A stretch of DNA of 55,677 bases from Saprospiraceae bacterium (GTDB lineage Bacteria; Bacteroidota; Bacteroidia; Chitinophagales; Saprospiraceae). Location of the stretch: assembly GCA_027488855.1 (NCBI GenBank), contig JAIYAV010000024.1:1-55677 (forward strand), in the 5' to 3' direction. Position numbers and translations under genes: made by a program. Shown here in pieces: positions 27,900-44,258 of this stretch (its first letter is position 1; each line of letters starts with the position of its first letter). The notes beneath the pieces are model-generated. The model saw only the letters and a program-made list of their open reading frames with translations, was not told where the DNA came from and made no database searches.

Positions 27900-28196
27900 A
27901 TGGTTGTGTACACTGAAGCAGTACAGTTTAAAGTTGACAGCAAGTTGCTAGACTTTATCGAGAAAAAATTGAGCAAAGTAGACCAGTTTTTCGACCGCAT
28001 CATCAATGCTAGGGTGGTGCTTAAACTGGAAAACACCGGACAGGTCAGAGAAAAAATCGCAGAAGTGCGCATCAATGTGCCGGGCGAAACCCTCATCGCC
28101 AAGGTAGGCAGCAAAACCTTTGAAGCCGCTGTTGAACAAGCAGTAGATTCCCTCAAACGACAAATCATCAAATACAAAGAAAAACATTCATCGTAG
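27900..28196 (+). CDS. hpf: Ribosome hibernation promoting factor, short form (HPF/RaiA)
   Basis: The 98-residue product has the beta-alpha-beta-beta-beta-alpha fold of the HPF/YfiA family: 'VYTEAVQFKVDSKLLDFIEK', 'KLSKVDQFFDRIINARVVLK', 'KIAEVRINVPGETLIAKVGS' and 'TFEAAVEQAVDSLKRQIIKY'. It binds the decoding region of the 30S subunit in stationary phase, blocking translation and helping ribosome dimers or stability. It lacks the C-terminal dimerisation domain of long HPF. The stop codon TAG is the first triplet of a REP-like repeat shared with the end of nusG, so the last residues may have been altered by its insertion. Confidence 0.93.
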   Translation: MVVYTEAVQFKVDSKLLDFIEKKLSKVDQFFDRIINARVVLKLENTGQVREKIAEVRINVPGETLIAKVGSKTFEAAVEQAVDSLKRQIIKYKEKHSS

Positions 28197-28246
28197 CGGC
28201 AACCCTCGCGGTTGCCGTTGTAAAGGGCAACCGCAAGGGATTGCCC
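28194..28246. repeat. Paired REP-like element (family C) at hpf stop codon
   Basis: Starting with the hpf stop codon, tagcggcaaccctcgcggtt and gcc form a hairpin (ggcaacc/ggttgcc). A second unit, gggcaaccgcaagggattgccc, follows after a short spacer and is the inverted counterpart of the first. A nearly identical copy begins at the nusG stop codon (31691). Confidence 0.85.
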
Positions 28247-28268
28247 CAACCAGGATTGCCCAACGGTA

Positions 28269-28337
28269 TTAACGGGTTTAATCAACACCGCAGGAACTAA
28301 ATTCACCTGCAGTTGGTTAAACCCGTTAAACTTTTTA
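28269..28337 (+). terminator. Terminator-like hairpin after xerC-hpf
   Basis: ttaacgggtttaa at 28269-28281 pairs exactly with ttaaacccgttaa at 28317-28329; inner bases (cgcagg/cctgca) extend the stem. The hairpin is followed by actttttag. It separates the xerC-hpf transcript from the promoters of the tRNA-tuf operon. Confidence 0.7.
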
Positions 28338-28346
28338 GCCCCAACC

Positions 28347-28379
28347 TTTGAAAATATCAACAACCTTATCCTATATTTG
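28347..28379 (+). promoter_or_regulatory. Possible distal promoter of the tRNA-tuf operon
   Basis: TTTG at 28347-28350 and TATATTTG at 28372-28379 fit the Bacteroidota consensus, with a spacer of 21 bases, slightly longer than the usual 19. Confidence 0.5.
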
Positions 28380-28428
28380 CGCCACGCTAACAGAAAAGGA
28401 AAATCAAAGAAAAAAAATCGCTTAAAAA

Positions 28429-28459
28429 TTTGATATTTCTTGGAGAGGCACTATCTTTG
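28429..28459 (+). promoter_or_regulatory. Main promoter of the tRNA-tuf operon
   Basis: TTTG at 28429-28432 and TATCTTTG at 28452-28459 are separated by exactly 19 bases, the optimal Bacteroidota arrangement. The leader to tRNA-Thr is about 180 bases, and I see no gene in it. Confidence 0.75.
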
Positions 28460-28643
28460 CAATCGCTTTCGGAAAAAGACGCCGAAATGCTTACAAAACT
28501 TGACATTTTCGACAAAAATAATTGATTTGAACAGGTTGAAAAACCTTGTAAAATCTGGCTTTTGATCAAACTGATTGCGTTTTCTGACAAATCATCTACC
28601 ATCTGATTTTTTAGGTATCGGTTCGATTCAAAACCAAAGCTAG

Positions 28644-28716
28644 GCCAGCATAGCTCAGTTGGTAGAGCAGCTGATTTGTAATCAGCTGGTCGGGGGTTCG
28701 AGTCCCTCTGCTGGCT
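28644..28716 (+). tRNA. tRNA-Thr (anticodon TGT)
   Basis: The acceptor GCCAGCA pairs with TGCTGGC. The anticodon arm GCTGA-TTTGTAA-TCAGC gives anticodon TGT. The T-arm GGTTCGAGTCC is normal, and CCA is encoded (28717-28719). First of four clustered tRNAs before tuf. Confidence 0.95.
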
Positions 28717-28722
28717 CCAAGT

Positions 28723-28740
28723 CCATGAATTCATTCGTGG
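28723..28740. repeat. TTTA/TTCA-loop hairpin (family B), single copy
   Basis: ccatgaattcattcgtgg folds on itself with one G-T wobble. It fills the gap between tRNA-Thr and tRNA-Tyr and belongs to the same family as the clusters at 30678, 33674 and 42900. Confidence 0.65.
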
Positions 28741-28783
28741 GTTAGTTCAAATCAATCTCAAAGCTTTTGCTTTGGGTCTCCGA

Positions 28784-28866
28784 GGGGGTGCGCCGCAGGT
28801 GGAGAGGCGGGCCAGACTGTAAATCTGGTGTCTTTGACTGAGTTGGTTCGAATCCATCCACCCCCA
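28784..28866 (+). tRNA. tRNA-Tyr (anticodon GTA)
   Basis: The acceptor GGGGGTG pairs with CACCCCC. The anticodon arm CCAGA-CTGTAAA-TCTGG gives GTA, and there is a long variable arm as in bacterial tRNA-Tyr. The T-stem GTTGG/CCATC carries one T-T mismatch. The CCA end is not fully encoded (ACAA follows). Confidence 0.9.
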
Positions 28867-28883
28867 CAATTTTTGTCATACAA

Positions 28884-28956
28884 GCGGAAGTAGCTCAGCT
28901 GGTAGAGCATCAGCCTTCCAAGCTGAGGGTCGCGGGTTCGAATCTCGTCTTCCGCT
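28884..28956 (+). tRNA. tRNA-Gly (anticodon TCC)
   Basis: The acceptor GCGGAAG pairs with CTTCCGC. The anticodon arm TCAGC-CTTCCAA-GCTGA gives TCC. CCA is encoded at 28957-28959. Confidence 0.95.
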
Positions 28957-28974
28957 CCATATGTTGACATTCAT

Positions 28975-29054
28975 CTCACTCGATCTCGCGATTTAAATCA
29001 TGGGATCGAGTGGGATGGATGTATACATGACAACCCACAACATTGGTCGTGGGG
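28975..29054. repeat. Two decayed family B hairpins between tRNA genes
   Basis: ctcactcgatc (28975-28985) pairs with gatcgagtggg (29004-29014), enclosing a degenerate copy of the cccacgatttaaatcgtggg hairpin. A second stem, cccac...gtggg, lies at 29034-29054. Both lie between tRNA-Gly and tRNA-Thr(GGT). Confidence 0.6.
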
Positions 29055-29076
29055 ACGAACAAGAAAAAAGACATAA

Positions 29077-29148
29077 GCCGATGTAGCTCAGGCGTAGAGC
29101 ACTTCCACGGTAAGGAAGGGGTCAAGGGTTCAAATCCCTTCATTGGCT
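29077..29148 (+). tRNA. tRNA-Thr (anticodon GGT)
   Basis: The acceptor GCCGATG pairs with CATTGGC (one G-T). The anticodon arm CTTCC-ACGGTAA-GGAAG gives GGT. The D-loop (AGGCGTA) is one base shorter than in the neighbouring tRNAs. CCA is encoded at 29149-29151. tuf starts 50 bases downstream. Confidence 0.93.
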
Positions 29149-29201
29149 CCAGGTCATAGATGCTTTTTGTTTCACCATTTACATCCAAAAATTCTATACT
29201 G

Positions 29202-30398
29202 ATGGCTAAGGGAACATTCGCTAGAACAAAGCCGCACGTAAACATCGGCACAATTGGTCACGTTGACCACGGAAAAACGACGCTTACAGCGGCAATCACT
29301 ACTGTTCTCGCTTCTAAGGGTCTGGCAGAGAAAAAAGATTACGACTCAATCGACGCCGCTCCAGAAGAAAAAGAAAGAGGGATCACGATCAATACAGCGC
29401 ACGTTGAATACGAAACTGAAAAGCGCCACTATGCTCACGTAGACTGTCCGGGTCACGCCGACTACGTTAAGAACATGGTAACGGGTGCTGCTCAGATGGA
29501 CGGTGCAATTTTGGTTTGTGCTGCAACTGATGGGCCAATGCCACAAACGCGTGAGCACATCCTTTTGGCTCGCCAAGTAGGTGTTCCTGCAATCGTTGTG
29601 TTCATGAACAAGGTTGACCTTGTTGATGACCCAGAGATGTTGGAATTGGTAGAAATGGAAGTTCGCGAGTTGTTGGACACTTATCAGTTTGATGGTGACA
29701 ATGCTGCGGTTATCCAAGGCTCTGCCCTGAAAGCGCTGGAAGGCGATGCAACTTACGTTCAACGCATCATGGATTTGATGGATGCAGTAGATGCACAAAT
29801 CCCTGAGCCAGTCCGTTTGACTGATAAGCCTTTCTTGATGCCTATCGAAGACGTATTCTCTATTACTGGTCGTGGTACTGTTGCTACGGGTCGTATCGAG
29901 CGTGGTGTCATCAATGTAGGTGATTCTGTTGAAATCATCGGTATGCAGAAAGAAGGCGAAAAGCCTTTGGTTTCTACGGTTACAGGTGTGGAAATGTTCC
30001 GCAAAATCCTTGACCGTGGTGAAGCTGGTGACAACGCTGGTATCCTGCTGCGCGGTATCGATAAAGAAGCCATCCGTCGTGGTATGGTTATTTGTGCTCC
30101 TAAATCAGTTAACCCACACGTTGAATTCAAGTGTGAGGTTTATGTACTGAGCAAAGAGGAAGGTGGCCGTCACACTCCATTCTTCAAAGGCTACCGCCCA
30201 CAGTTCTACTTCCGTACTACGGACGTAACTGGTGACTGTACGCTTCCTGAAGGAGTAGAAATGGTAATGCCTGGTGACAACGTAACTTTGAACGTGAAAC
30301 TGTTGAGCCCAATCGCAATGGAAAAGGGTCTGCGTTTTGCGATTCGTGAAGGTGGCCGTACCGTAGGTGCAGGTCAGGTTACTGAAATCATCAAGTAG
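29202..30398 (+). CDS. tuf: Elongation factor Tu
   Basis: The 398-residue GTPase delivers aminoacyl-tRNA to the ribosomal A site. The G motifs are intact: GHVDHGKTT (P-loop, residues 19-27), '[14 protein letters not shown]' (switch I), '[12 protein letters not shown]' (switch II, near 82) and NKVD (near 137). Domains 2 and 3 follow, ending '[20 protein letters not shown]'. The ATG at 29202 gives the standard [20 protein letters not shown] start; the longer frame from 29160 is not needed. It lies in the conserved order tRNA-Thr, tRNA-Tyr, tRNA-Gly, tRNA-Thr, tuf, tRNA-Trp, secE, nusG, and is most likely co-transcribed with the tRNAs. Confidence 0.98.
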
Positions 30399-30593
30399 CA
30401 ACATCCCTATGTGGATGTTGAAACAACATCTCTGAGTGGGTGTTCTTGACCTGACATCCCAGGATTGTTCTCTTGAAGGCATTAATACAGGTAATTGATG
30501 CGTAGAGAAATTTCTCTACAATCATGATATGATATTGAAAAGTAAGCATCTCACCACTGGTGGGGTGCTTAACTTTTCGATACCACACCACAC
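30399..30593. other. tuf to tRNA-Trp spacer with several hairpins
   Basis: The spacer holds caacatccctatgtggatgttg (30399-30420), the perfect palindrome gtagagaaatttctctac (30502-30519) and a 40-base imperfect hairpin (30538-30577, aaaagtaagcatctc pairing with ggggtgcttaactttt). These could act in termination or in processing of the tRNA-containing transcript. No gene is seen. Confidence 0.6.
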
Positions 30594-30666
30594 ACGGGCA
30601 TAGCTCAGCTGGTAGAGCGACGGTCTCCAAAACCGTAGGCCGAGGGTTCAAATCCTTCTGCCCGTG
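30594..30666 (+). tRNA. tRNA-Trp (anticodon CCA)
   Basis: The acceptor ACGGGCA pairs with TGCCCGT. The anticodon arm ACGGT-CTCCAAA-ACCGT gives CCA. CCA is encoded at 30667-30669. Its place between tuf and secE is conserved in Bacteroidota. Confidence 0.95.
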
Positions 30667-30677
30667 CCATATCCCCA

Positions 30678-30796
30678 ACCTATGGATTTATCCCTGGGCA
30701 GGGAATGCTCCAAACCAACCCATGACTTTAGTCCTGGGTTAAACTACATGGCTTTAGCCGTGGGAAAGGCAACTAACCCACGAATTTATTCGTGGT
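30678..30796. repeat. Cluster of four TTTA-loop hairpins (family B)
   Basis: Four hairpins lie in a row: cctatggatttatccctggg (30678), cccatgactttagtcctggg (30719), catggctttagccgtggg (30746) and cccacgaatttattcgtgg (30778). All have a TTTA loop. The bases next to the loop change in pairs (GA/TC, AC/GT, GC/GC, AA/TT), keeping the stem intact. The cluster separates tRNA-Trp from secE. Confidence 0.85.
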
Positions 30797-30842
30797 ACAT
30801 TCGTGCGGAGTCAGAATCTGAGGGTAAGTATAAACCACACAC

Positions 30843-31031
30843 ATGGAAAAGATTCAACTTTACTTAAGGGAAAGCTACCAGGAACTAGTCAAAAACGTAT
30901 CCTGGCCAACTTGGGCGAATTTACAGGCAAATGCAGTGGCCGTTGTGGTTGCAGTATTGCTCTTGGCAGCAATTGTGTTTCTCATGGATGTGGTTTCCAA
31001 GTTTACATTGGACTTCATCTACGGAATCTAG
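30843..31031 (+). CDS. secE: Preprotein translocase subunit SecE
   Basis: The 62-residue product has an amphipathic N-terminal helix with the conserved 'LVKNVSWPTWANLQ' (about residues 15-28) and one transmembrane helix (AVAVVVAVLLLAAIVFLMDV), the minimal single-span SecE that stabilises SecY in the inner-membrane Sec channel. Length matches the short Bacteroidota form. It lies just upstream of nusG, the order found in most bacteria. A longer overlapping frame at 30803 in another phase is a shadow. Confidence 0.95.
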   Translation: MEKIQLYLRESYQELVKNVSWPTWANLQANAVAVVVAVLLLAAIVFLMDVVSKFTLDFIYGI

Positions 31032-31050
31032 ATAAAATGCAGTGCCGTAA

Positions 31051-31086
31051 GGCATTCGACAGTTCAGTCCTGTCGAGTGCCTTTTG
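31051..31086 (+). terminator. Terminator-like hairpin between secE and nusG
   Basis: ggcattcgacag (31051-31062) pairs with ctgtcgagtgcc (31070-31081) as a 12-bp stem with one wobble, followed by only four T. It could partly terminate or attenuate the transcript, or be an RNA processing site within the secE-nusG operon. Confidence 0.6.
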
Positions 31087-31144
31087 GCGTTTGTTTAATG
31101 ATTAAACTTGTTTACAGGTTTGTCGAATAAATTGGTAGAGATCG

Positions 31145-31693
31145 ATGTCTGAAGATAAAAAATGGTACTCATTAAGGGTGATCAGCGGCAAAGAGCGCAA
31201 AATTAAAGAGCGCATTGATGCTGAAATTCTGCGCAATGAATGGAATTCATTTATCTCGTCGGTCGTCGTACCTACCGAAAAGGTCTACAAGATTCGCAAC
31301 GGTAAAAAAGTAATTTCCGAGCGCAACATTTTACCTGGCTACTTGCTTGTAGAAGCTGTGGCTGGCAAACTGAGCGGGGAAATTGTACAAGTAATTGCCA
31401 ATGTACCCAATGTCATTCATTTTTTGGGCAAAAACACGCCTGAACCCATGAAAGACGCTGAAGCCAATCGCCTCTTGGGTAAAGTGGACGAATCTCAAGC
31501 CGCTGGTGAGTCCCTGATTGAACCATTCATCGTTGGTGAAACCATCAAAATTGTCGATGGCCCATTCAGCGAATTCATTGGTGACATTCAGGAAGTGAAC
31601 GAGGAGAAGAAAAAGCTGAAGGTGATTGTAAAAATCTTTGGCCGGGGCACCGAAGTCGAATTGGGCTTCATGCAGGTAGAAAAAACCTCGTAG
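31145..31693 (+). CDS. nusG: Transcription termination/antitermination protein NusG
   Basis: The 182-residue product binds RNA polymerase and affects pausing, Rho termination and coupling to the ribosome. An NGN domain fills residues about 5-120 ('WYSLRVISGKERKIKERIDA', 'ILPGYLLVEAVAGKLSGEIV', 'VPNVIHFLGKN') and a KOW domain follows ('GETIKIVDGPFSEFIGDIQE' to 'KIFGRGTEVELGFMQVEK'). The stop codon is the TAG at the start of a REP-like repeat, as for hpf. NusG ends within five residues of the usual end, so the insertion has not damaged the KOW domain. Confidence 0.96.
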   Translation: MSEDKKWYSLRVISGKERKIKERIDAEILRNEWNSFISSVVVPTEKVYKIRNGKKVISERNILPGYLLVEAVAGKLSGEIVQVIANVPNVIHFLGKNTPEPMKDAEANRLLGKVDESQAAGESLIEPFIVGETIKIVDGPFSEFIGDIQEVNEEKKKLKVIVKIFGRGTEVELGFMQVEKTS

Positions 31694-31748
31694 CGGCAAC
31701 CCTCGCGGTTGCCGGGCGTTCCAACGAGGGCAACCGCAAGGGTTGCCC
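31691..31748. repeat. Paired REP-like element (family C) at nusG stop codon
   Basis: tagcggcaaccctcgcggtt then gcc, a short spacer, and gggcaaccgcaagggttgccc form two hairpins that are inverted copies of each other. The first 23 bases are identical to those at the end of hpf (28194). Confidence 0.88.
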
Positions 31749-31881
31749 GTACAGATCGTGTATTTTTGATTTTCAATATACTGCGTAAAAAGTATCGTTG
31801 TTGTTGTTCCTCCGGAATGTGAGCCGGAATGAAACGCTTCCCATCCAACAGCTTTACTCAGCGGTAAAATTATTTACTAAA

Positions 31882-32340
31882 ATGGCAAAGGAAGTAGAAG
31901 TTTTCATCAAACTTCAGGTCAAAGGCGGTCAAGCAAACCCAGCTCCCCCCATCGGTCCGGCACTCGGTTCCAAAGGGGTGAACATCATGGAGTTTTGCAA
32001 GCGCTTCAATGCCGCTACCCAGGATAAAATGGGTAAGATACTTCCGGTGGTGATCTCGGTTTATAAGGACAAGTCCTTTGAATTCGTGATCAAAACACCT
32101 CCGGCAGCTATCCAACTCATGGAAGCCTCCAACATCAAGAAGGGTTCTGCTGAATCCAACCGGAAAAAGGTAGGCACCGTAACTTGGGATCAGGTAAAAG
32201 CGATCGCTGAAGACAAAATGCCCGACCTCAACTGCTTCACCATCGATGCTGCCATGAAAATGATAGCGGGTACGGCACGCAGTATGGGGTTGAACATCTC
32301 TGGCACTCCTCCTTGGGGTGGCGCAGAAGTGGAGGCATAA
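31882..32340 (+). CDS. rplK: 50S ribosomal protein L11
   Basis: The 152-residue product binds the GTPase-associated region of 23S rRNA and forms the base of the L10/L12 stalk. It shows the N-terminal '[20 protein letters not shown]' motif with its prolines, the thiostrepton-region '[15 protein letters not shown]', and a C-terminal rRNA-binding domain ending '[15 protein letters not shown]'. It is slightly longer than the usual 141-147 residues because of a short tail. The ATG at 31882 gives the standard [13 protein letters not shown] start. First gene of the rplKAJL-rpoBC string. Confidence 0.97.
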
Positions 32341-32409
32341 TCTTATTTCTTCAAAAGGGAGTCGGCAGCTGAACGCAGCAACCGACGTTGACCTTAAATC
32401 TTTTTTGAC

Positions 32410-33102
32410 ATGGCAAAAGTTGGAAAGAAAAGAGCCGCTGTCAATGCCAAAGTAGACCGCAATAAGCTGTATACTCTGGAAGAAGGAACTGCTCTAATGA
32501 AAGACGTGAACTTGACCAAGTTTGATGCTTCGGTTGACATTCACGTACGCCTGGGTGTCGATCCACGTAAGCCGGATCAAGCACTCCGTGGCACCGTAGG
32601 TCTGCCACACGGAACGGGTAAAACCAAACGTGTAGCCGTATTTTGTACTCCGGAAAAAGCCGAAGAAGCAAAAGCAGCAGGTGCAGATTACGTAGGTTTG
32701 GAAGACCTGATCCAAAAGGTTCAGGAAGGTTGGACGGATGTCGACGTAATCATCGCAATGCCACAAACCATGGCTGCGTTGGGTAAAGTTGCCCGTATCC
32801 TCGGCCCTCGTGGTTTGATGCCCAACCCAAAAACCGGTACGGTAACCACCAACATTGGAGAGGCAGTTTCCGAAGTAAAGAAGGGTAAGATTTCCTTCCG
32901 CGTTGACAAAACGGGTATCATTCACGCTTCAGTTGGTCGGGTGTCTTTTGCCCCTACTCAATTGATCGAGAACATCAATGAATTGCTGAGTACACTACAA
33001 CGTATGAAGCCTTCAACGGCTAAGGGAACTTACATGAAAAGTATTACCCTTGCTACTACGATGAGCCCAGGTGTGAAAATTGATCCCAAAGTGATTCGCT
33101 AA
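32410..33102 (+). CDS. rplA: 50S ribosomal protein L1
   Basis: The 230-residue product forms the mobile L1 stalk at the tRNA exit site and in many bacteria represses its own operon. Motifs include '[20 protein letters not shown]', '[18 protein letters not shown]', '[19 protein letters not shown]' and '[20 protein letters not shown]'. The 69-base gap after rplK contains gtcgg...ccgac (about 32361-32386), a small stem-loop that might be an L1 target, though I cannot show it. The gap to rplJ is 19 bases. Confidence 0.97.
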
Positions 33103-33121
33103 GTTTTAAAACAGGAGTCAA

Positions 33122-33664
33122 ATGAATAAGGCTGAAAAGACAGCAACTATCGAAGTGTTGAAGGAGCAGTTTGGTGAAAATAACTATTTCTACCTTGCTG
33201 ATGCTTCTACCATGTCGGTAGGTGATGTCAACAAATTCAGAAGGCTTTGCTTCGAAAAAGGTGTCTCAATGCAAGTCATTAAGAACACCCTGGTGAAGAA
33301 AGCACTGGAGGACACTCCTGCTGAGAAGAATTACGCTGGCATTTTTGAAGCACTCCATGGCCCTACCGCCATTTTGTTCTCCAATGATCCCGCTGCACCT
33401 GCCAACTCGGTTGCTAAAATGCTGAAAGACTATCGTCGTTCAGGCAGTGAGCGCCCATTGTTGAAAGCTGCTTACGTGGATTCTGCGGTGTTCATCGGTG
33501 ATGACCAATTGGATGCACTGACCAAACTCAAGTCCAAGCAAGATTTGCTGGGCGAATTGATTGGTCTGCTTCAATCACCCGCAAAAAACCTCGTCAGTGC
33601 CCTGCAATCTGGTGGTTCTACCATCGCTGGATTGGTCAAGGCCCTCGAAGAGCGCCAAGCGTAA
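33122..33664 (+). CDS. rplJ: 50S ribosomal protein L10
   Basis: The 180-residue product anchors L7/L12 dimers on the ribosomal stalk. The N-terminal domain carries 'LADASTMSVGDVNKFRRLCF' and 'MQVIKNTLVKKALEDTP'. The C-terminal helix that carries the L12 dimers follows 'LSK'-like 'LTKLKSKQDLLGELIGLLQS' and ends 'STIAGLVKALEERQA'. The partner gene rplL lies 208 bases downstream rather than the usual few tens of bases, because four palindromic repeats occupy the gap. Confidence 0.96.
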   Translation: MNKAEKTATIEVLKEQFGENNYFYLADASTMSVGDVNKFRRLCFEKGVSMQVIKNTLVKKALEDTPAEKNYAGIFEALHGPTAILFSNDPAAPANSVAKMLKDYRRSGSERPLLKAAYVDSAVFIGDDQLDALTKLKSKQDLLGELIGLLQSPAKNLVSALQSGGSTIAGLVKALEERQA

Positions 33665-33673
33665 TCTCCCCAA

Positions 33674-33798
33674 CCCATGGATTCATCCATGGGAGGGAAT
33701 ACGGGTTCCAACCCACGAATTTATTCGTGGGAATTTCCACGAATGAATTCGTGAAAGTGATCCGTACCTCAGCAAACCCACAAAAATGTTTGTGGGTT
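33674..33798. repeat. Cluster of four TTTA-loop hairpins (family B) between rplJ and rplL
   Basis: Hairpins at 33674-33693 (cccatggattcatccatggg), 33712-33731 (cccacgaatttattcgtggg), about 33737-33753 (ccacgaatgaattcgtg) and 33775-33798 (aacccacaaaaatgtttgtg then ggtt) are packed within 125 bases. The first and third have the loop as TTCA/TGAA variants. Confidence 0.85.
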
Positions 33799-33872
33799 GC
33801 AAACGGTTAAGGCTTCCAAGCTAACCGCTCATTATATACCATTTTCAAACCACTTTTTTAAAAGACATAACA

Positions 33873-34250
33873 ATGGCTGAGTTGAAAGCTCTTGCGGAAA
33901 CGCTTGTAAATTTGACGGTTAAAGATGTTCAGGAACTGGCTGCTATCCTGAAGGACGATTACGGCATTGAGCCTGCTGCTGCTGCTGTAGCAGTTGCTGC
34001 TGCTCCTGCTGCTGATGCTGCTCCTGCTGCTGTTGAGCAAACCGAATTCGATGTTATCCTTCAGTCTGGTGGTGCCAACAAACTGAACGTGGTTAAAGAA
34101 GTGAAAAACCTCTTGGGTCTTGGCTTGAAAGAAGCAAAAGACTTGGTTGACGGTGCTCCACAACCACTGAAGACAGCTGTTTCTAAAGACGAAGCTGAGT
34201 CTTTGAAAGCTAAGTTGGAAGAAGCTGGCGCTCAGGTAGAAATTAAATAA
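33873..34250 (+). CDS. rplL: 50S ribosomal protein L7/L12
   Basis: The 125-residue stalk protein recruits translation factors. An N-terminal dimerisation helix ('[20 protein letters not shown]') is followed by an Ala/Pro-rich flexible hinge (about residues 33-52, [19 protein letters not shown]) and a globular C-terminal domain ('[20 protein letters not shown]', '[19 protein letters not shown]'). The length is normal. Present in several copies per ribosome, it is usually translated more strongly than rplJ; its separation from rplJ by repeats could affect that. Confidence 0.97.
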
Positions 34251-34564
34251 TTTCTCCTTGCGCAAGCCAAAAGCAACTAGCGAAACTGACTTTTAGCAGT
34301 ATAGCTTTTGGAATGGGCAGTGCTTCAAAAAATTATTTTTGAAGCACCAGGGCTTAGGAAATCGACCTTGGTTGTTTCCTAAGCCCATTGCCATATACTT
34401 TGTATTGTACATTTCGTGATTTTTATGCGAAAGAATGAAACTTTTTTAACATTGGTTTCATTTACTAGTCAGGAAAACCACTACATAGTTTGACTTGACT
34501 ATTTTGTACCCCTCGGCTATAAAGGCTTGGGGCTTTTACCATCAACAACAAACTTGTTGCGCAG
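34251..34564 (+). promoter_or_regulatory. rplL-rpoB spacer with overlapping RNA hairpins
   Basis: Three hairpins follow rplL: ccaaaagc/gcttttgg (34267-34274 with 34304-34311), gtgcttcaaaaa with tttttgaagcac (34320-34347) and gggcttaggaaa with tttcctaagccc (34350-34386). In addition aatgggc at 34312-34318 can pair with gcccatt at 34383-34389, which competes with the third stem. This is the usual place for the partial terminator or processing site that lowers rpoBC expression. The rest of the 314 bases shows no gene. Confidence 0.6.
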
Positions 34565-37500
34565 ATGATATTCAATGGTAAAGCACAATCGGCTGAAGCG
34601 AAGCGTATTACCTTCAGCAAAACTAAATTTCCCACTCCTTATCCTGATTTCCTTGAAATTCAGCTAAAGTCCTTTCAAGAGTTCTTCCAATTGGAAACAA
34701 CTCCTGAAAATCGGATGAATGAAGGATTGTACAAGGTATTTCAGGAAAATTTCCCAATCACGGATGCGAGAAACATCTTCGTACTCGAGTTTCTGGATTA
34801 CTTTATCGACCCTCCCCGTTACAGCATTGAAGAATGTATGCAACGTGGTTTGACCTATAGCGTCCCGCTTAAGGCCAAATTGCGCTTGTCCTGTAACGAT
34901 GAGGAACACGTCGACTTCCAAACCATTGTACAAGATGTGTTTCTGGGGAACATTCCGTACATGACGCCCAAAGGTACTTTTATGATCAATGGTGCCGAGC
35001 GTGTGATCGTATCACAGCTCCACCGTTCACCAGGGGTATTTTTTGGTCAAAGTGTACACCCCAACGGTACCAAAATCTATTCTGCCCGGGTTATTCCTTT
35101 CAAAGGAGCCTGGATGGAATTTGCTACCGACATCAACACCGTAATGTATGCGTACATCGACCGGAAGAAGAAATTCCCGGTTACTACGCTGTTGCGTGCC
35201 ATCGGTTACGATACCGACAAAGCTATCCTCGATATCTTTGATCTGGCCGATGAAGTAACTGCTACCCGCGAGGCGCTTGAACAAAGCATTGGCCGCAAAT
35301 TGGCTGCCCGTGTATTGCGCAGTTGGACCGAAGACTTCGTAGATGAAGATACCGGTGAAGTGGTTACCATCGAACGGAATGAGATCATTCTGGAACGCGA
35401 CACCATTTTGGACGAAGACAATATTGAAGCAATCCTGGAAGCATCGGTGGCTACAGTCATCCTGCAAAAAGAAGACATCGAACAGGATTACTCCATTATA
35501 TATAACACCTTGCAAAAGGACCCGACCAGTTCTGAACTGGAAGCGGTACAATACATCTATCGCCAGTTGCGCGGTACTGATCCCCCCGATGAGGAAACGG
35601 CACGTGGCATCATCGAGAAGTTGTTCTTCTCTGACAAACGCTACAACCTGGGTGAAGTAGGGCGCTACAAGATCAACAAGAAACTACAGTTGGATATCTC
35701 GGAAGAGGTATTGGTGTTGACCAAAGAAGACATCATCTCCATCGTGCGGTTCCTGGTGACCTTGATGAACCAAATGGCGGAAATCGACGACATCGATCAC
35801 CTGGAAAACCGCCGGGTACGTACCGTAGGTGAGCAATTGTACGCTCAGTTCGGTGTAGGTCTGGCGCGGATGGCTCGTACCATCCGGGAACGGATGAACG
35901 TGCGCGACAACGAGGTATTTACTCCCGTTGACCTGATCAACGCGCGTACCCTTTCCTCGGTAATCAACTCCTTCTTCGGAACCAGCCAATTGTCGCAGTT
36001 CCTGGATCAAACCAACCCTCTGTCGGAAATCACGCACAAGCGGCGTATTTCTGCACTCGGGCCAGGTGGTTTGTCCCGCGAGCGTGCTGGTTTTGAGGTT
36101 CGTGACGTACACTACTCCCACTATGGCCGTCTGTGTACCATCGAAACCCCGGAAGGACCAAACATCGGTTTGATCTCTACCTTGTGCGTACACGCCAAGA
36201 TCAATAAAATGGGCTTCCTCGAAACCCCTTACCGGAAAGTCATTGAAGGTATGGTGGAAAAAGTGGAGCAACCATTGTACTTGTCAGCAGAAGGGGAAGA
36301 CAAAATGCGGATTGCCCAGGCTAATGCCCTGCTGAACAACGATGGTACCTTCGTCCAAGACCGGGTCAAATGCCGTGAGCATGGTGATTTTCCAGTTTTG
36401 ACACCAGAAGAAATCGACTACATGGACGTAGCACCCAACCAAATCGTTGGGGTATCTGCTTCCATGATTCCTTTCTTGGAAAACGACGACGCCAACCGTG
36501 CCTTGATGGGCTCGAACATGCAACGTCAGGCGGTGCCACTGATTCGCCCACACTCGCCAGTAGTAGGTACTGGTTTGGAAGGCAAAGTTGCCCGTGACTC
36601 CCGCATGCTCATCAACGCAGAAGGTGAAGGGGTAATCGAATACGTGGATGCTACCGAAATCCATGTACGTTACGACCGTACACCCGAAGAGCAGCTGATT
36701 TCTTTCGAAGACAACTTGAAGAAATACAACCTCATCAAGTTTACCCGTACCAACCAGGGTACCTGCATCAACCTGCGCCCCATTGTACGCAAAGGCGACC
36801 GAGTTGAAAAAGGACAAATCCTTTGTGATGGTTACGCAACTGAAAAGGGCGAATTGGCTTTGGGCCAAAACATGAAGGTAGCCTTCATGCCCTGGAAAGG
36901 TTACAACTTTGAGGACGCCATCGTGATTTCTGAGCGCGTAGTACGTGAAGACATCTTTACTTCTGTACACATCGAGCACTTTGAAATCGACGTACGCGAC
37001 ACCAAGTTGGGCGAAGAAGAACTCACCAACGATATCCCGAACGTGAGTGAAGAAGCCACCAAAGACCTGGACGAAAACGGAATCATCCGCATCGGTGCCT
37101 GGGTCAAGGAAGGCGACATTCTGATCGGGAAAATCACTCCAAAAGGGGAATCCGATCCTACTCCGGAAGAAAAACTCTTGCGTGCCATCTTTGGTGACAA
37201 AGCCGGCGACGTGAAAGACGCTTCCTTGAAGGCGCCCCCCTCTACTACGGGTGTGATCATCGACAAGCAACTTTTCGCTCGTGCGAAAAAAGATAAAGTG
37301 CAGAAAAACCAGGAGAAAGACGTATTGTCCAAACTGGATGACCAGCACAAAGTCGCGACCAACGAGTTGTTGACCATTTTGGTGGACAAACTGATGCTTT
37401 TGTTGAAAGACAAAACTTCACAAGGTATCCGTACCATTTATGGTGATAACCTGCTGGCCAAAGGGGTAAAATTCACTCAGGACACTCTGCGTGACCTGGA

Positions 37501-38386
37501 TTATACCTCGGTGGACTATACCAACTGGACCGACGAGCCTAAATCCAATGAATTTGTTGCCCGTTTGTTGCACAACTACAGCATCAAACTCAACGAAGAA
37601 ATTGGCCGCTACAAGCGTGAGAAATTCAACGTGAGCATTGGTGACGAACTTCCAGCGGGTGTACTCAAGCTGGCTAAAGTATACATGGCCAAAAAGCGCA
37701 AGCTGAAAGTAGGTGACAAACTTGCTGGACGCCACGGTAACAAAGGTATCGTATCCCGGATCGTTCGGGCTGAAGACATGCCTTTCCTCGAAGATGGAAC
37801 ACCCGTTGACATCGTGTTGAACCCACTGGGGGTACCTTCACGGATGAACTTGGGCCAAATCTTCGAAACCGTATTGGGCTGGGCTGGTGAAAAATTGGGT
37901 GTCAAATTCGCTACACCAATCTTTGACGGGGCTACCCGCGACGAGATTGAAGAGTGGATCCAAAAAACGAGCTTGCCAAGTTTGGGTCAAACTTACCTTT
38001 CTGACGGTGAAACGGGCGACCGCTTCCACCAGCAGGCTACGGTAGGGGTGATCTACATGCTTAAACTCAGCCACATGGTTGACGATAAGATGCACGCACG
38101 TTCCATCGGCCCATACTCGCTCATTACCCAGCAACCATTGGGTGGTAAAGCACAGTTTGGTGGTCAGCGTTTTGGGGAAATGGAAGTTTGGGCACTCGAA
38201 GCATTTGGTGCTGCCAACATCCTCCAGGAATTGCTTACCATCAAGTCCGATGACATCAATGGCCGCGCCAAAGCGTACGAGGCCATCGTTAAAGGAGACA
38301 ACCTTCCAGAACCAAACATTCCGGAGTCCTTCAACGTACTTGTACACGAATTGCGCGGTCTGGCGCTCGATGTGAAATTTGAATAA
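34565..38386 (+). CDS. rpoB: DNA-directed RNA polymerase subunit beta
   Basis: The 1273-residue product forms one pincer and part of the active centre of RNA polymerase. The rifampicin-binding region is normal (about residues 470-520, '[20 protein letters not shown]', '[20 protein letters not shown]'), followed by '[20 protein letters not shown]'. The C-terminal region has '[18 protein letters not shown]' and ends with the anchor '[20 protein letters not shown]' and '[20 protein letters not shown]'. No resistance-type change is evident in the rifampicin cluster. Length fits Bacteroidota RpoB. rpoC follows after a gap filled by a large palindrome. Confidence 0.99.
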
Positions 38387-38396
38387 ACCTAAAAGC

Positions 38397-38502
38397 TGAG
38401 CAATTGAGGAGTTGAGAAGTTGAGGCTACCGCGAGCGAATTGGACATGTCCTTGTCCAATTCGCTCGCGGTAGCCTCAACTTCTCAACTCTTCAATTGCT
38501 CA
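38397..38502. repeat. Near-perfect 106-bp palindrome (family A) between rpoB and rpoC
   Basis: The left arm 38397-38446 (starting tgagcaattgaggagttgag, ending gcgaattggaca) is matched by the right arm 38453-38502 as its reverse complement with about one mismatch in 50 bases; the loop is six bases. The right arm ends 21 bases before the rpoC ATG. The same arm sequence occurs, decayed, at 211-317. Confidence 0.93.
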
Positions 38503-38523
38503 ACTTCATAAACCTTTAGGAGC

Positions 38524-41500
38524 ATGCCATTCAAAAAGAAGGGTAATATTCAAAATCAAAATTTTGACAGCATCACCATCAGCTTGTCCTCTCCTGACGA
38601 AATTCTGGAGCGTTCTTATGGTGAAGTGCTCAAGCCAGAAACCATCAACTACCGCTCTTACAAGCCGGAACGTGATGGTCTATTCTGCGAGCGCATCTTC
38701 GGGCCTGTCAAGGATTATGAATGCTATTGCGGTAAGTACAAGCGGATCCGCTACAAGGGGATCGTGTGCGACCGTTGTGGGGTTGAGGTAACCGAGAAAA
38801 AAGTTCGCCGGGAGCGGATGGGCCACATCAAACTGGTCGTACCCGTGGTGCACATTTGGTTCTTCAAATCACTGCCTAATAAAATTGGTTATCTGCTCGG
38901 CTTGTCTTCCAAGAAATTGGAGTCAATTGTTTATTACGAGCGCTATGTGGTGATCCAACCAGGGATCAAAGGCAACGAAGGTCTTGGCAACAACGACCTG
39001 CTGACCGAAGAAGAATACCTGGAACACCTGGAATCGCTGCCCGCAGAAAACCAAATGCTGGAAGATACCGATCCCAACAAATTCATCGCCCGCATGGGTG
39101 CTGAAGCAGTGCGTGACATGCTCAACCGCCTGCAGTTGGATCAACTGTCTTACGACCTGCGTCACCAGGCTGCCAACGAAACTTCTCAACAACGTAAGTC
39201 AGAAGCCCTCAAGCGTCTGCGCGTAGTGGAAGCTTTCCGCGATGGCCAAACCCGCATGGAAAACCGCCCCGAATGGGCTGTAATCCAATACCTGCCCGTT
39301 ATTCCACCCGAATTGCGCCCCTTGGTGCCATTGGATGGTGGTCGTTTTGCCAGCTCCGATTTGAACGACTTGTACCGTCGGGTGATCATCCGCAACAACC
39401 GTTTGAAGCGTCTGTTGGAAATCAAAGCCCCTGAGGTCATCTTGCGCAACGAAAAACGGATGTTGCAGGAAGCAGTCGACTCTTTGTTCGACAACTCCCG
39501 CAAATCCAATGCCGTAAAAGCGGAAGGTGGTCGTCCACTCAAATCTTTGAGTGACATCCTTAAAGGTAAGCAAGGTCGTTTCCGTCAAAACTTGTTGGGT
39601 AAGCGGGTAGACTACTCTGGTCGTTCAGTAATCGTAGTAGGTCCAACCTTGAAACTGCACGAGTGTGGTTTGCCCAAAGGGATGGCAGCCGAATTGTTCA
39701 AACCCTTCATCATCCGCAAACTCATCGAGCGCGGTATCGTGAAGACGGTTAAATCGGCCAAAAAACTCGTAGACCGTAAGGATCCCGTAATCTGGGAAAT
39801 CCTCGAAAATATCCTGAAGGGGCACCCCGTGCTCCTCAACCGTGCCCCAACTTTGCACCGTTTGTCGATCCAGTCCTTCCAGCCTCGTTTGGTAGAAGGT
39901 AAGGCGATCCAGTTGCACCCATTGGTGTGTAGCTCGTTCAACGCCGACTTCGACGGTGACCAGATGGCGGTACACGTACCCCTGAGCCAGGCGGCGATTT
40001 TGGAAGCTCAAATGTTGATGCTTTCTTCGCACAACATGCTCAACCCTCAAAACGGTACGCCGATCACCCTGCCTTCACAGGACATGGTATTGGGTCTGTA
40101 CTACATCACCAAGGAGCGAAAAACCATTGGTAATGTCATCGTGAAAGGGGAAGACATGAAGTTCTACTCTCCTGAAGAGGTAATCATTGCCCTCAATGAA
40201 GGAAAGGTAGACTTGCACGCCAGAATCAAAGTACGCGTTCCGGTAGAAGTAGACGGCAAACTGGTCAAAAAATTGACCGAAACCACCGTTGGTCGGGTCT
40301 TGTTCAATGAGGTAATGCCAGCTGGTGTGCCTTTCCAGAACACCCTGATGACCAAGAAAAACCTGAAATCGGTAATTGGTGAAGTAATCGAACGCACCGA
40401 TTTTGCGGTGACTGCCGATTTTCTTGACGACATCAAAGACATGGGCTTTACCTGGGCCTTCCGAGGTGGTTTGTCCTTTAACCTTGGCGACTTGATCACG
40501 CCTTCCATCAAGCAAGATGCACTGGAAGAAGCGCAAGGCGAAGTCGACGAAGTGTGGGACAACTACAACATGGGTTTGATCACCAACAACGAGCGTTACA
40601 ACCAGATCATCGACCGTTGGACGTATGCGGACAACCGCATTACTGATACGCTGATGCGCGAGTTGGCCAGCCACAAGCAGGGCTTTAACTCGGTGTTCAT
40701 GATGCTTGACTCCGGTGCACGTGGTTCCAAACAACAAATTAAACAGTTGTGCGGTCTGCGGGGCTTGATGGCCAAACCACGTAAGTCTGGTGACACAGGT
40801 GGAGCGGTTATCGAAAACCCGATCTTGTCCAACTTTGTGGATGGTCTGTCCGTTCTTGAGTATTTCATCTCTACGCACGGTGCGCGTAAAGGTCTTGCGG
40901 ATACCGCCCTTAAAACGGCAGACGCAGGTTACTTGACCCGTCGTTTGGTGGACGTCGCTCAGGACGTAATCATCCTGGAAGAAGACTGTAGCACTTTGCG
41001 CGGCCTGGAAACAGTGGCGCTCAAAGACAACGACAAAGTGATTGAACCATTGGTATCCCGTATCGAAGGTCGGTATACTTTGCACGATATTGTACACCCC
41101 GTTTCCGAAGAACTCATCCTCTCAGCAGGTGATTTCATCGATCCAAAAACGGCTGAATACATCGAACAAATTGGGGTTGAAACGATCACCATCCGCTCCG
41201 TACTGACTTGTGAAGCCAAGCGTGGGGTTTGTGCCAAATGTTATGGTAAAAACTTGGCGAATGGTCGCATTGCTGAAGAAGGTGACGCAGTAGGGATTAT
41301 TGCAGCACAATCCATCGGTGAACCAGGTACTCAGTTGACACTGCGTACTTTCCACACGGGGGGTACCGCATCTTTGTCCAAAACTGAGTCTGAGATCGTT
41401 GCCAAGTTCCCGGGTAAAATTGAATTTGACGGCGTCAAACTGACTGAAGCACCGGATGAAAACGGCGCCCGGGTAGTTCTGTCTCGTACTGGTGAGCTCC

Positions 41501-42822
41501 GGATTGTCGATGCAGATACGGGCAAGCAATACGTTGCCGTGCACGTACCTTACGGCTCGTCCTTGAGTGTATTGGAAGGAGACATCGTGAGCAAAGGCCA
41601 GATGCTTTGTAACTGGGACCCTTTCAACGCGGTAATCATCTCCGAATTCTCGGGTATCGCCAAATTCGACTCAATCGAAGACGGGGTTACCTTCCGGATT
41701 GAACGTGACGAACAAACGGGCTTCTCCGAAAAGGTCATCATTGAAAGTAAGAACAAGCGGAAAATTCCGGTGATCTTCATCATGAGCCCCGACGGAGTAG
41801 AACTCAAAACGTATACCTTGCCAGTGGGGTCATACATCTCGATTGAAGATGGCGTGACCATTACTGCGGGCGATAAAATTGCCAAGATTCCACGGAAACT
41901 GGGTAAGATCCAGGATATCACGGGTGGTCTGCCTCGGGTAACTGAGCTTTTCGAAGCACGTAACCCATCTAACCCCGCCATCGTTTCTGAAATCGACGGT
42001 GTGGTGAACTTCGGCAAGATCAAACGGGGTAACCGCGAAGTCTCCGTAACCGCCAAGGACGGCCAAGTCAGAAAGTACCTGATTGGTTTGAGCAAACACA
42101 TCCTGGTACAAGATGGCGACTTCGTGCGCGCTGGTACACCACTTTCTGACGGTACCATCGCCCCACGCGACATCTTGTCCATCAAAGGGCCATTTGCAGT
42201 ACAGCAGTACCTCGTGAATGGTGTCCAGGAAGTATACCGCTCACAGGGTATCACCATCAACAACAAACACATCGAGGTAATTGTACGCCAGATGATGCGC
42301 CGAGTGTTGATCGAAGACCCAGGCGATACGAGCTTCCTCGAAGGTGAAACGGTGGACAAAATGGAATTCCTGGAGCAAAACGACTGGATTTTCGACAAGA
42401 AAATCGTCGTGGAATCCGGCGAATCCAACCGCTTGAAGCCAGGCCAGTTGGTGACTTTGCGCCAAATTCGGGAAGAAAACTCTTTCCTTAAGCGCAACGA
42501 CCGCCAGTTGGTGGAATACCGCGATGCCGTAGCCTCTACTTCCAGCCCACAATTGTTGGGGATCACCAAGGCTTCCTTGGGTACCAACAGCTGGATCTCG
42601 GCTGCATCCTTCCAGGAAACCACCAAGGTGTTGAGTACGGCTGCCATCGGTGCCAAAACCGACAACTTGATGGGCTTGAAAGAGAACGTAATCGTCGGCA
42701 AACGTATCCCAGCGGGTACTGGCCAACGCAAGTTCGACAACATCATCGTAACGCATAAAGACCGTGCTGCTGAACTGGAGTCCCGCTACCACCAGTTCGA
42801 CGACATGGAAGATGAAGATTGA
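38524..42822 (+). CDS. rpoC: DNA-directed RNA polymerase subunit beta'
   Basis: The 1432-residue product carries the catalytic centre. It has the N-terminal zinc ribbon (about residues 66-86, [20 protein letters not shown]), the Mg-binding [16 protein letters not shown] (about 473-488), the second zinc site '[16 protein letters not shown]' (about 896-911) with the earlier Cys of 'EEDCSTLRG', and the trigger/bridge region '[20 protein letters not shown]'. The C-terminus ends with an acidic DDMEDED tail. The sequence is complete. Transcription should end at a strong terminator at 42988-43028. Confidence 0.99.
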
Positions 42823-42895
42823 GTGTGAAGGTGTGATCGTGTGAAAGTGTGGGTGTGATGGAGCTTTGAGCTGAACATCTTACCCTCACGCTCAG
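42823..42895. repeat. GTGTGA-type low-complexity stretch after rpoC
   Basis: gtgtgaaggtgtgatcgtgt and the following bases repeat GTGTG with 1-3 base spacers from 42824 to about 42858. A similar GT-rich run lies in the loop of the left-edge palindrome (241-272). Its meaning is unknown. Confidence 0.5.
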
Positions 42896-42899
42896 CCAA

Positions 42900-42982
42900 C
42901 CCACGGAAATCCCACGATTTAAATCGTGGGTTAAATCCGTGGGAGGCCACATGCCACCTCCGCCCACGGATTTATCCGTGGG
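42900..42982. repeat. Nested and single family B hairpins after rpoC
   Basis: An outer hairpin (cccacgga at 42900-42907, tccgtggg at 42936-42943) is split by an inner complete hairpin, cccacgatttaaatcgtggg (42911-42930). A third, cccacggatttatccgtggg, lies at 42963-42982 and has the same arms as the outer one. Confidence 0.88.
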
Positions 42983-42987
42983 AAAGC

Positions 42988-43028
42988 CGGATGGATCGAC
43001 ACAACGTTGGTCCATCCGCTTTTTTTTT
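42988..43028 (+). terminator. Rho-independent terminator of the rpoBC operon
   Basis: cggatgga (42988-42995) pairs with tccatccg (43011-43018), followed by ctttttttttt (nine T). Confidence 0.88.
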
Positions 43029-43055
43029 CCCACCAACAAGCACCGTACCCCTCGT

Positions 43056-44258
43056 TCACCCTCCCGTACAAGTACAACAACCCTCACTTAAGGCAACGGC
43101 CCACAACAATTGGGTTTCTATCCCCACTATTTGAGTATTTGGCAAAATCGAGTTCATACTCCCCAAATTAACCCGGCCAAAAGCACTGAGGTCAAATTGG
43201 GGGATACTCGCACCATAGGGGCTCAAGGCATTTCTCGCGGTTGACAAATGATTCTGGATCACATTTTGGACTGCTACCGGCATAGGCGTTGGCATACCCT
43301 GACGGCTGCTCGCCCAGGCTTGCGCTGCACCCAAGTGGATACCTCCGATGTACAGTGCACTGATGTGTACGTTGTTGTCGCAGCTTAGTCTGAGGTTTTG
43401 TACCACCGCTTGTAAATCGCGGATCAGGGTTTCGGTTTCGACAATCAGTTGTCGGGTGCCTGTGCCAGCCAATGCACCGCGTAAGTTTTGAATCCGACCA
43501 CGATCGAATCCAATACACTGCATGATTCCTAAGGTAGCATCTAGCATGTTCAAGGCATCGGAACAGGCAGTGACAGCATCTGGGGTCAACATCGGTGGCT
43601 CGGTGGACATGCGTCCCCAAACCGTGCCCAGGGCTTGGGCAGCAAAGTAAAAGCTGGACAACTCCGCCCGGCAAAGTTTTTGAGTGATGGGCGGATTGTT
43701 AACCGGAGGCGCGGCGTTACTCGATTTTTTGACCCAAACCTGATTGTTCCAGGTGATGGAATTGCCATCGGCGGATACATTGGCAATGGCATTGTTCCAT
43801 TCTGGGATGGTGATGGTATTGGCACTGGTAAAAAAACCAGGCAAATTTTTTCCCTGATAAGTGAGGGTGAAAAAAGTGTTGTCTTGTTCAACTGGGTAAA
43901 GTTCTTGAGGGAAGGCCGCCAAGCTCCAGCTTCCTGCGATGGACGGATACCCGGAAAAGGGGCTTCTCGTCCAAATTTGATTGTTCCAGAGCAGCCCCTG
44001 ACCACCAGTGGTGAGTGTAGCGGAGGCATTCCATTGGGTCGCAAAAACGGTGGTGGCATTGGTGAAATACCCATTGCTGCGGTTGGTTCCGATGGTGAAA
44101 ACCAGATTGTTGGCTTGTTGGGTAATGGTGCAGGGGATTTCCGCCCGGCCATTGGAGTACCAGGTGCCGAGGATTTGGTTTTGGGCTGTCAACTGGAAGG
44201 GTAACATTCCAAGGATGCACGTAGCAAAAAGGAGGTAAAAACGAGGTCGAAGTTTCAT
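43056..44258 (-). CDS. Secreted protein with two internal beta repeats
   Basis: The 400-residue product has a signal peptide (MKLRPRFYLLFATCILGMLP, cleavage likely after LTAQ). Two related units of about 70 residues follow: unit 1 (about 29-98) runs from 'ILGTWYSNGRAEIPCTITQ' to 'LLWNNQIWTRSPF', and unit 2 (about 107-174) from 'IAGSWSLAAFPQELYPVEQD' to 'ITWNNQVWVKKSS'. Each has G-x-W at the start, a mid W and the end motif 'tWNNQ.W'. A Pro-rich linker leads to a mostly helical C-terminal half that ends with a CCTC motif. I do not recognise a named family. It is convergent with rpoC and not in the glycan operon. Confidence 0.75.
   Translation of the reverse strand: MKLRPRFYLLFATCILGMLPFQLTAQNQILGTWYSNGRAEIPCTITQQANNLVFTIGTNRSNGYFTNATTVFATQWNASATLTTGGQGLLWNNQIWTRSPFSGYPSIAGSWSLAAFPQELYPVEQDNTFFTLTYQGKNLPGFFTSANTITIPEWNNAIANVSADGNSITWNNQVWVKKSSNAAPPVNNPPITQKLCRAELSSFYFAAQALGTVWGRMSTEPPMLTPDAVTACSDALNMLDATLGIMQCIGFDRGRIQNLRGALAGTGTRQLIVETETLIRDLQAVVQNLRLSCDNNVHISALYIGGIHLGAAQAWASSRQGMPTPMPVAVQNVIQNHLSTARNALSPYGASIPQFDLSAFGRVNLGSMNSILPNTQIVGIETQLLWAVALSEGCCTCTGG

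Follow-up and report, generated by a model that had tools for sequence, protein, structure and literature searches.

TTYA-loop hairpins of a Saprospiraceae genome and their association with an IS200-type Y1 transposase gene

The window analyzed here is a whole stretch of 55,677 bp (55.7-kb contig C105, JAIYAV010000024.1) from an 8.37-Mb, 422-contig assembly of a Saprospiraceae bacterium (GCA_027488855.1). In the spaces of its tRNA-ribosomal protein-RNA polymerase locus it carries repeated copies of a 20-nt stem-loop with a TTYA loop. Here we describe the genome-wide family of this hairpin and its association with a Y1_Tnp transposase gene (L033), whose product would probably recognize the hairpins and, at least formerly, have spread them as REP-like (repetitive extragenic palindromic) elements.

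RESULTS

Hairpin sites in the tRNA-ribosomal protein-RNA polymerase locus

Searching both strands of the window with CCCAYGNNTTYANNCRTGGG, at a tolerance of up to 3 mismatches, yielded 20 matches at 12 distinct sites, compared with a mean of 2.7 and a maximum of 7 in shuffled sequences. The hairpins adjoin tRNA genes (tRNA-Thr, -Tyr, -Gly, -Thr, and -Trp) or sit between them. They also occur upstream of a 62-amino-acid frame at 30843, between a 180-amino-acid frame ending at 33664 and a 125-amino-acid frame at 33873, and downstream of a 1,432-amino-acid frame ending at 42822; from gene order, we take these frames to be secE, rplJ, rplL, and rpoC, respectively. A sequence-only reading of this DNA had named about 12 copies in these places, in agreement with both the number and the contexts found. 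Only 3 of the 12 sites (33674, 33712, and 42963) match the strict genome-wide pattern without mismatch, and several copies (28722, 28985, 29034, 30679, and 33736) appear decayed. The sites are listed below, with counterparts in the close genomes G121 (95%) and G120 (92% identity, positions 28600-34100).

28722..28741, + strand: decayed copy after tRNA-Thr, 1 mismatch; CCCATGAATTCATTCGTGGG in G120 and G121
28976..29017, + strand: decayed nested hairpin in the tRNA-Gly/tRNA-Thr gap, inner hairpin at 28985-29004 with 3 mismatches, outer extent set by eye; plain doublet in G120
29034..29053, + strand: decayed copy, 3 mismatches; counterpart in G120 and G121
30679..30698, + strand: copy between tRNA-Trp and secE, 2 mismatches
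30719..30738, + strand: copy CCCATGACTTTAGTCCTGGG, 1 mismatch
30745..30764, + strand: copy TACATGGCTTTAGCCGTGGG, 2 mismatches
30777..30796, + strand: copy CCCACGAATTTATTCGTGGT upstream of secE, 1 mismatch
33674..33693, + strand: hairpin 1 of the rplJ/rplL doublet, strict pattern; nested form in G120 and G121
33712..33731, + strand: hairpin 2 of the rplJ/rplL doublet, strict pattern
33736..33755, - strand: inverted decayed copy, 3 mismatches
42900..42943, + strand: hairpin 1 of the doublet after rpoC, nested, with a second hairpin in place of the loop; plain hairpin CCCACGGATTTATCCGTGGG in G121
42911..42930, + strand: inner hairpin CCCACGATTTAAATCGTGGG after rpoC, found by the CCCAYGNNTTYANNCRTGGG search
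42963..42982, + strand: hairpin 2 of the doublet after rpoC, strict pattern

The inner module of the nested hairpin after rpoC recurs at other places.

Genome-wide copies and stem covariation

The strict pattern CCCAYNNNTTYANNNRTGGG occurs in 157 copies (83 + 74) throughout the genome, and its reversed control in none. Relative to this number (157 per 8.37 Mb), ∼1.05 copies would be expected in the 55.7-kb window, where 3 were found. An unusual concentration of hairpins inside the conserved operon, as the sequence-only reading had it, is therefore not convincing: the density is ∼3 times the average, and the copies are too few.

Covariation was analyzed in the 104 of the 157 copies that were present in fetched stretches. 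The pattern leaves three stem pairs free (6/15, 7/14, and 8/13). Pair 6/15 is G-C in all 104 copies and, being invariant, uninformative. Pair 7/14 exists in two types and is Watson-Crick in 103 copies, the remaining one being G-T, while pair 8/13, which adjoins the loop, is Watson-Crick in all 104 (A-T in 61, C-G in 36, and T-A in 7). Taken together, pairs 7/14 and 8/13 amount to 207 Watson-Crick cells out of 208. The matched stem changes between copies that had been read from the window are thus borne out, and compensatory change in this hairpin family is real. At position 5/16, C-G (62 copies), T-G (41), and T-A (1) occur, but C-A never does, indicating that one particular strand is the one kept foldable.

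Among neighboring hairpins no more than 250 nt apart in this genome, 50 of 55 pairs lie on the same strand and 5 are inverted. There are 45 same-strand doublets with a spacing of 34 to 44 nt and a length of ∼64 bp. In these, an AA/A bulge in hairpin 1 is followed by an additional outer stem of the types GCC/GGC, GGC/GCC, CGC/GCG, and CCC/GGG. Two positions of the outer stem covary, being paired in 42 and 38 of 45 doublets (shuffle maxima, 36 and 33, respectively). The third is too uniform to judge (39 of 45; shuffle maximum, 39), and a fourth position outward is unpaired (6 of 45). No outer stem was found at hairpin 2 of the same doublets. Of the 49 hairpin clusters, 41 are located between open reading frames, 7 overlap a crude open reading frame call, and the last one is at an edge; the loci themselves are ∼25% noncoding. 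The 4 nt at the foot of the stem are CCAA, CCAC, GCAA, or CCAG in 73 of the 104 copies, and a GT[AG]G foot 0 to 2 nt 5' of the stem is present in none.

As a separate observation, GTGTGGGTGTG-rich repeats at 42824-42860 and in the flanks of several clusters accompany hairpin doublets, as if belonging to a longer composite element.

A Y1 transposase gene between inverted hairpin doublets

The sequence-only reading had envisaged a Y1_Tnp gene with this hairpin on its flanks, and one exists among the 13 Y1_Tnp genes of the genome: L033, on contig C333, lies between inverted doublets, with two family hairpins on each side. No strict copies were found in the fetched loci of the other 12 genes, those of L041 and L043 being short. 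The flanks of L033 are collinear in two relatives.

The L033 product has 148 amino acids and the motifs DHVH and YILNQEKHH. It scores 81.4 bits against the IS200 transposase profile (cutoff, 55) and 33.4 bits against REP_Tyr_transpos (cutoff, 80). Its closest solved protein is ISHp608 TnpA (E value, 5e-9), with the HUH, Tyr, and Gln residues aligned. The Y---Q--HH motif, which marks subclass 1.2, is present in 10 of the 13 Y1_Tnp genes, an assignment made by motif and not by the clustering of Quentin et al. (2018). By its profile scores and motifs, the L033 enzyme is an IS200-type subclass 1.2 protein and not a canonical RAYT (REP-associated tyrosine transposase), a label that we rejected since the protein misses the REP_Tyr_transpos cutoff and carries Y---Q--HH instead of Y---NP. 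An origin of the hairpins from the ends of TnpB-linked IS605 elements was rejected as well, as the genome holds no match to TnpB (PF07282).

Gene copy number is low. L033 is the only gene of its own genome in the clade associated with hairpins (see below), the other nine being at most 40% identical to it. In 29 other genomes with 1 to 7 homologs each, no two full-length rows resemble copies of each other, as judged solely by their differing L033 scores; G120 has a further fragment of 51 amino acids (98%) on another contig. Three of the other subclass 1.2 genes adjoin different hairpins: L038 a TGACYTC...GARGTCA hairpin (4 at the gene, 36 genome-wide), L037 GCTGCCC...GGGCAGC, and L040 CCCCCCG...CGGGGGG. 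The same scan detected no flanking hairpins at L031, L032, L034, L035, and L036.

The transposase locus is bracketed by parS-like palindromes GTTCCACGTGGAAC (L033 positions 871, 1255, and 2163; also at L044 and L045, hence in three genomes). They were present in no other locus among those compared, and the L033 gene may lie near the chromosome partition site.

Association of gene and hairpins across Bacteroidota

With the L033 protein as the query, a genome scan returned 431 stretches, of which 405 were confirmed and 80 kept. These 80 loci were picked by protein similarity, regardless of hairpins, and hairpins within 600 bp of the gene were counted as near. Strict-family hairpins numbered 93 near the gene (93 kb) versus 4 far from it (343 kb), with none for the reversed control, and occurred near the gene in 35 of the 80 loci. 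Generic hairpins with stems of at least 8 bp gave 191 near versus 39 far. Where such near hairpins had a 4-nt loop, it was TTCA, TTTA, or TTAA in 177 of 181 cases.

A quick tree search over 119 proteins, using 145 columns, gave many weak forks; its rows are not all independent, since near-identical genes occur. In this tree, L033 falls within a clade of 82 rows (SH-like approximate likelihood ratio test, 94). A TTTA-, TTCA-, or TTAA-loop hairpin lies within 600 bp of the gene in 78 of these 82 rows versus 5 of the 37 rows outside. The hairpin label changes 9 times on the tree, compared with at least 25 times in 200 shuffles.

The pattern CCCACSNNTTYANNSGTGGG was found in 28 of 34 genomes, with 0 copies in 6: 23 to 89 copies occur in G120, G121, G001, G041, Cnuella, Terrimonas, F. 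ustbae, and Flexibacter, and 1 to 18 copies in 20 others. Its reversed control gave one match, in G136. G093 has 0 copies of the CCCACS pattern, but this pattern is unable to detect the CCCGCG hairpin located at its gene. In the Terrimonas genome of L099 (G138; C62, 234757-235674), TTYA hairpins in both orientations form an array with a period of ∼180 nt, resembling a BIME (bacterial interspersed mosaic element).

Stem types and feet

Among the 84 rows of the tree labeled by stem type, 38 changes of type were counted (shuffle mean, 46; minimum, 43). A Flavobacterium-type subclade of 10 rows has 33 near hairpins with 4-nt loops, every one of them CCCGTG or CCTGCG. Copies of these two types, counting those that flank the gene, number 3 to 31 in each of the 9 subclade genomes tested; they are absent from 12 of 14 other genomes and present in 2. 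Stem sequences thus appear to follow the protein subclades in part.

The tetranucleotide directly preceding the inner 8-bp stem is ATAG in 108 of 226 strands, against a background of 0.3%, and in 65 of 144 oriented TTYA-loop strands. An ATAG foot is present in 50 of the 77 loci with a hairpin. In contrast, GT[AG]G precedes only 3 of 145 TTYA hairpins near the relatives' genes.

Turnover between relatives

A stricter pattern was found in 5 of 120 genomes of the family, including the one studied here, and not in the same-genus genome G018. Seven window intervals, five of which carry hairpins here, were compared by eye with relatives. All five of these places have hairpins in G121 and G120 as well, and the compared stretches of G018 and G001 have none. 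Shared sites differ jointly on both stem arms: between tRNA-Trp and secE, the stem is GGA/TCC here versus GGC/GCC in G120 and G121, and the stems at sites 33 and 25 likewise differ on both arms together between genomes. Clusters 7 and 18 differ by whole units, other clusters are common to relatives, and at sites 8 and 11 unrelated palindromes of G121 replace the hairpin clusters. The search for empty sites covered 20 of 45 eligible clusters (30 of 65 matches read), 13 of which had an alignable counterpart in one or more relatives; sites 0, 4, 24, 26, 29, 34, and 41 had no alignment within the matches read and count as unread, not as absent. The insertion-site comparison proposed in the sequence-only reading thus gave clusters common to two close genomes and none in G018, but no clean target-site insertion. 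Exchange of hairpins by recombination is possible.

G121 has no hairpins at the places corresponding to C77:14225 and C83:9702 and carries GGTTCCAAGGTTCC-type palindromic repeats instead, which belong to another repeat family.

DISCUSSION

A REP-like family and its candidate transposase

We consider it probable (roughly 0.78) that the hairpins are a REP-like family recognized, and at least formerly spread, by a resident low-copy Y1/HUH transposase from the IS200 side of the superfamily (subclass 1.2). The system is best read as REPtron-like, with an IS200-type transposase at its core. Its unit would be a 20-nt stem-loop with a TTYA loop and a foot that is CCAA-like here and ATAG at many of the relatives' genes, often arranged in same-strand doublets. 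The transposase would bind the loop and stem of the hairpin and cleave near the foot, and hairpins would spread and be exchanged as single-stranded DNA, perhaps when lagging-strand synthesis leaves the TTYA strand exposed on its template. We infer recognition and movement by the enzyme from the association of gene and hairpins, and transposition likewise.

Several observations weigh against this reading. Strict-family hairpins lie near the gene in only 35 of the 80 loci, with the remainder depending on other stems, and four clade rows (L077, L078, L114, and L126) have no hairpin. G041 holds 31 strict hairpins without a close homolog (best, 27%), G102 has a homolog (42%) and neither a nearby hairpin nor strict copies, and several gene-bearing genomes have just 0 to 4 copies. 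The stem label is just moderately clustered on a tree of few columns and many weak forks. The homologs in G130 and G144 (L076 and L109, respectively) have CCCACG at their flanks, yet these genomes contain 10 and 9 copies, respectively, of the CCCGTG/CCTGCG type. ATAG is missing at 27 of the 77 loci with a hairpin. Finally, none of the 13 alignable clusters has a clean empty site with a precise target, and the differences in unit number are bounded by repeated arms, such that slippage or recombination could account for them.

A wider reading would make this a phylum-wide REP system in which subclass 1.2 transposases codiverge with TTYA hairpins. The same-strand doublet would then be a gene-less miniature IS200, its two hairpins serving as left and right ends, excised and reinserted as single-stranded circles from the lagging-strand template. 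We regard this as tentative.

Alternative explanations

Alternatively, the hairpins could be maintained as RNA, as intercistronic stem-loops that shield or tune mRNAs and are copied by ordinary recombination, with the transposase being incidental. T-G without C-A pairs suits RNA folding, and 24 of the 30 clusters between codirectional genes have their hairpins on the coding strand, compared with 3 on the opposite strand and 3 mixed. This bias also fits a lagging-strand template, however, assuming that genes run with replication, and no Rfam family other than 5 tRNAs matched window positions 28000-44000 at the gathering threshold. Since hairpins concentrate beside the transposase gene in loci fetched regardless of hairpins, and stems follow the protein clade in part, we consider maintenance as RNA unlikely.

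Considerably less likely still is a reading in which the hairpins are spread by one of the genome's own canonical class 2 RAYTs, with the subclass 1.2 gene as no more than a recipient. By motif there are three such genes (L041 to L043), and L042, the one scanned, is above the REP_Tyr_transpos cutoff (94.4 bits). Nevertheless, their fetched loci (short for L041 and L043) contain no strict copy, and the link of hairpins to the subclass 1.2 clade recurs in other Bacteroidota. That the hairpins are intrinsic terminators, as their GC-rich intergenic stems and a T-rich stretch after the rpoC cluster might suggest, is highly improbable, since at least 5 T within 8 nt follow the hairpin in 0 of 104 copies on the hairpin strand and 12 of 104 on the other, and hairpins form doublets and also occur upstream of genes.

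Comparison with known systems

The transposase-based reading has its closest parallel in REPtrons, in which REPs, BIMEs, or REPINs (REP doublets forming hairpins) accompany a class 2 RAYT (TnpA-REP). Common features are dispersed intergenic hairpins with covarying stems and clusters, a Y1/HUH gene of low copy number between inverted hairpins, and a preferred tetranucleotide foot. The enzyme (IS200-type Y---Q--HH here versus Y---NP) and the foot (ATAG or CCAA-like versus GT[AG]G) differ, and here the TTYA/TTAA loop is nearly invariant and the doublets of the genome itself are direct. The REPIN unit is an inverted hairpin pair, unlike the mostly same-strand pairs (50 of 55) of this genome; the Flavobacterium hairpin lists include inverted pairs, which were not counted. 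Of the REP elements mobilized by a RAYT that the sequence-only reading had proposed, the REP-like family and the flanked Y1 gene hence remain, but not the canonical RAYT, the GT[AG]G foot, or the inverted pairing.

As far as the accessible text of Quentin et al. (2018; PMC6006769) goes, TnpA(Y1) subclass 1.2 is tabulated with REP "no" and generally lacks typical terminal IS200 structures, and the automatic REP search demanded GTAG or GTGG. The L033 protein agrees with that description in its 148 amino acids, DH[IV]H and Y---Q--HH motifs, low copy number, and occurrence in Bacteroidota, the phyla of the subclass being Bacteroidota or Cyanobacteria; while the subclass was published there without REPs, hairpins here adjoin a large part of it. 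With IS200/IS605 elements (IS608 and ISDra2), the system shares the protein profile and hairpin ends on single-stranded DNA, and contacts to a loop T are reported for both elements in the portion of PMC8266576 consulted. In contrast to these, no multicopy gene unit was seen here, and the L033 hairpins are inverted around the gene and do not mark left and right ends. PATEs (palindrome-associated transposable elements), ends-only derivatives of IS200/IS605, are likewise gene-less, bear hairpins, and are thought to be moved in trans; at ∼271 nt, according to the accessible part of PMC7290912, they are longer than the ∼64-bp doublets, whose copies are far more numerous. In the literature searched, which excluded most subscription papers, no prior report linking subclass 1.2 to REPs was found.

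The association provides a candidate substrate, and hence a testable function, for a branch of HUH transposases described without insertion sequence ends or REPs. It suggests that domestication into a REP-like system took place within the IS200 branch, where the foot motif differs and the loop hardly varies, and the diversity of stem types in Flavobacterium makes the specificity of enzyme for hairpin directly testable. If the miniature-IS200 reading were true, REPs would have had an independent origin beside that linked to class 2 RAYTs.

Other repeats

A second hairpin family, GGCAACCnnnnnGGTTGCC, is present in the window at 28197-28217 and 31694-31748 and at 26 sites genome-wide. This GGCAACC family could not be tied to any gene; it sometimes occurs in neighboring pairs with reversed loops (CTCGC or CTTGC/GCAAG). 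Between rpoB and rpoC, a perfect inverted repeat with 38-bp arms occupies window positions 38409-38490, a spot at which G120 and G121 carry different long palindromes and G018 carries a short one.

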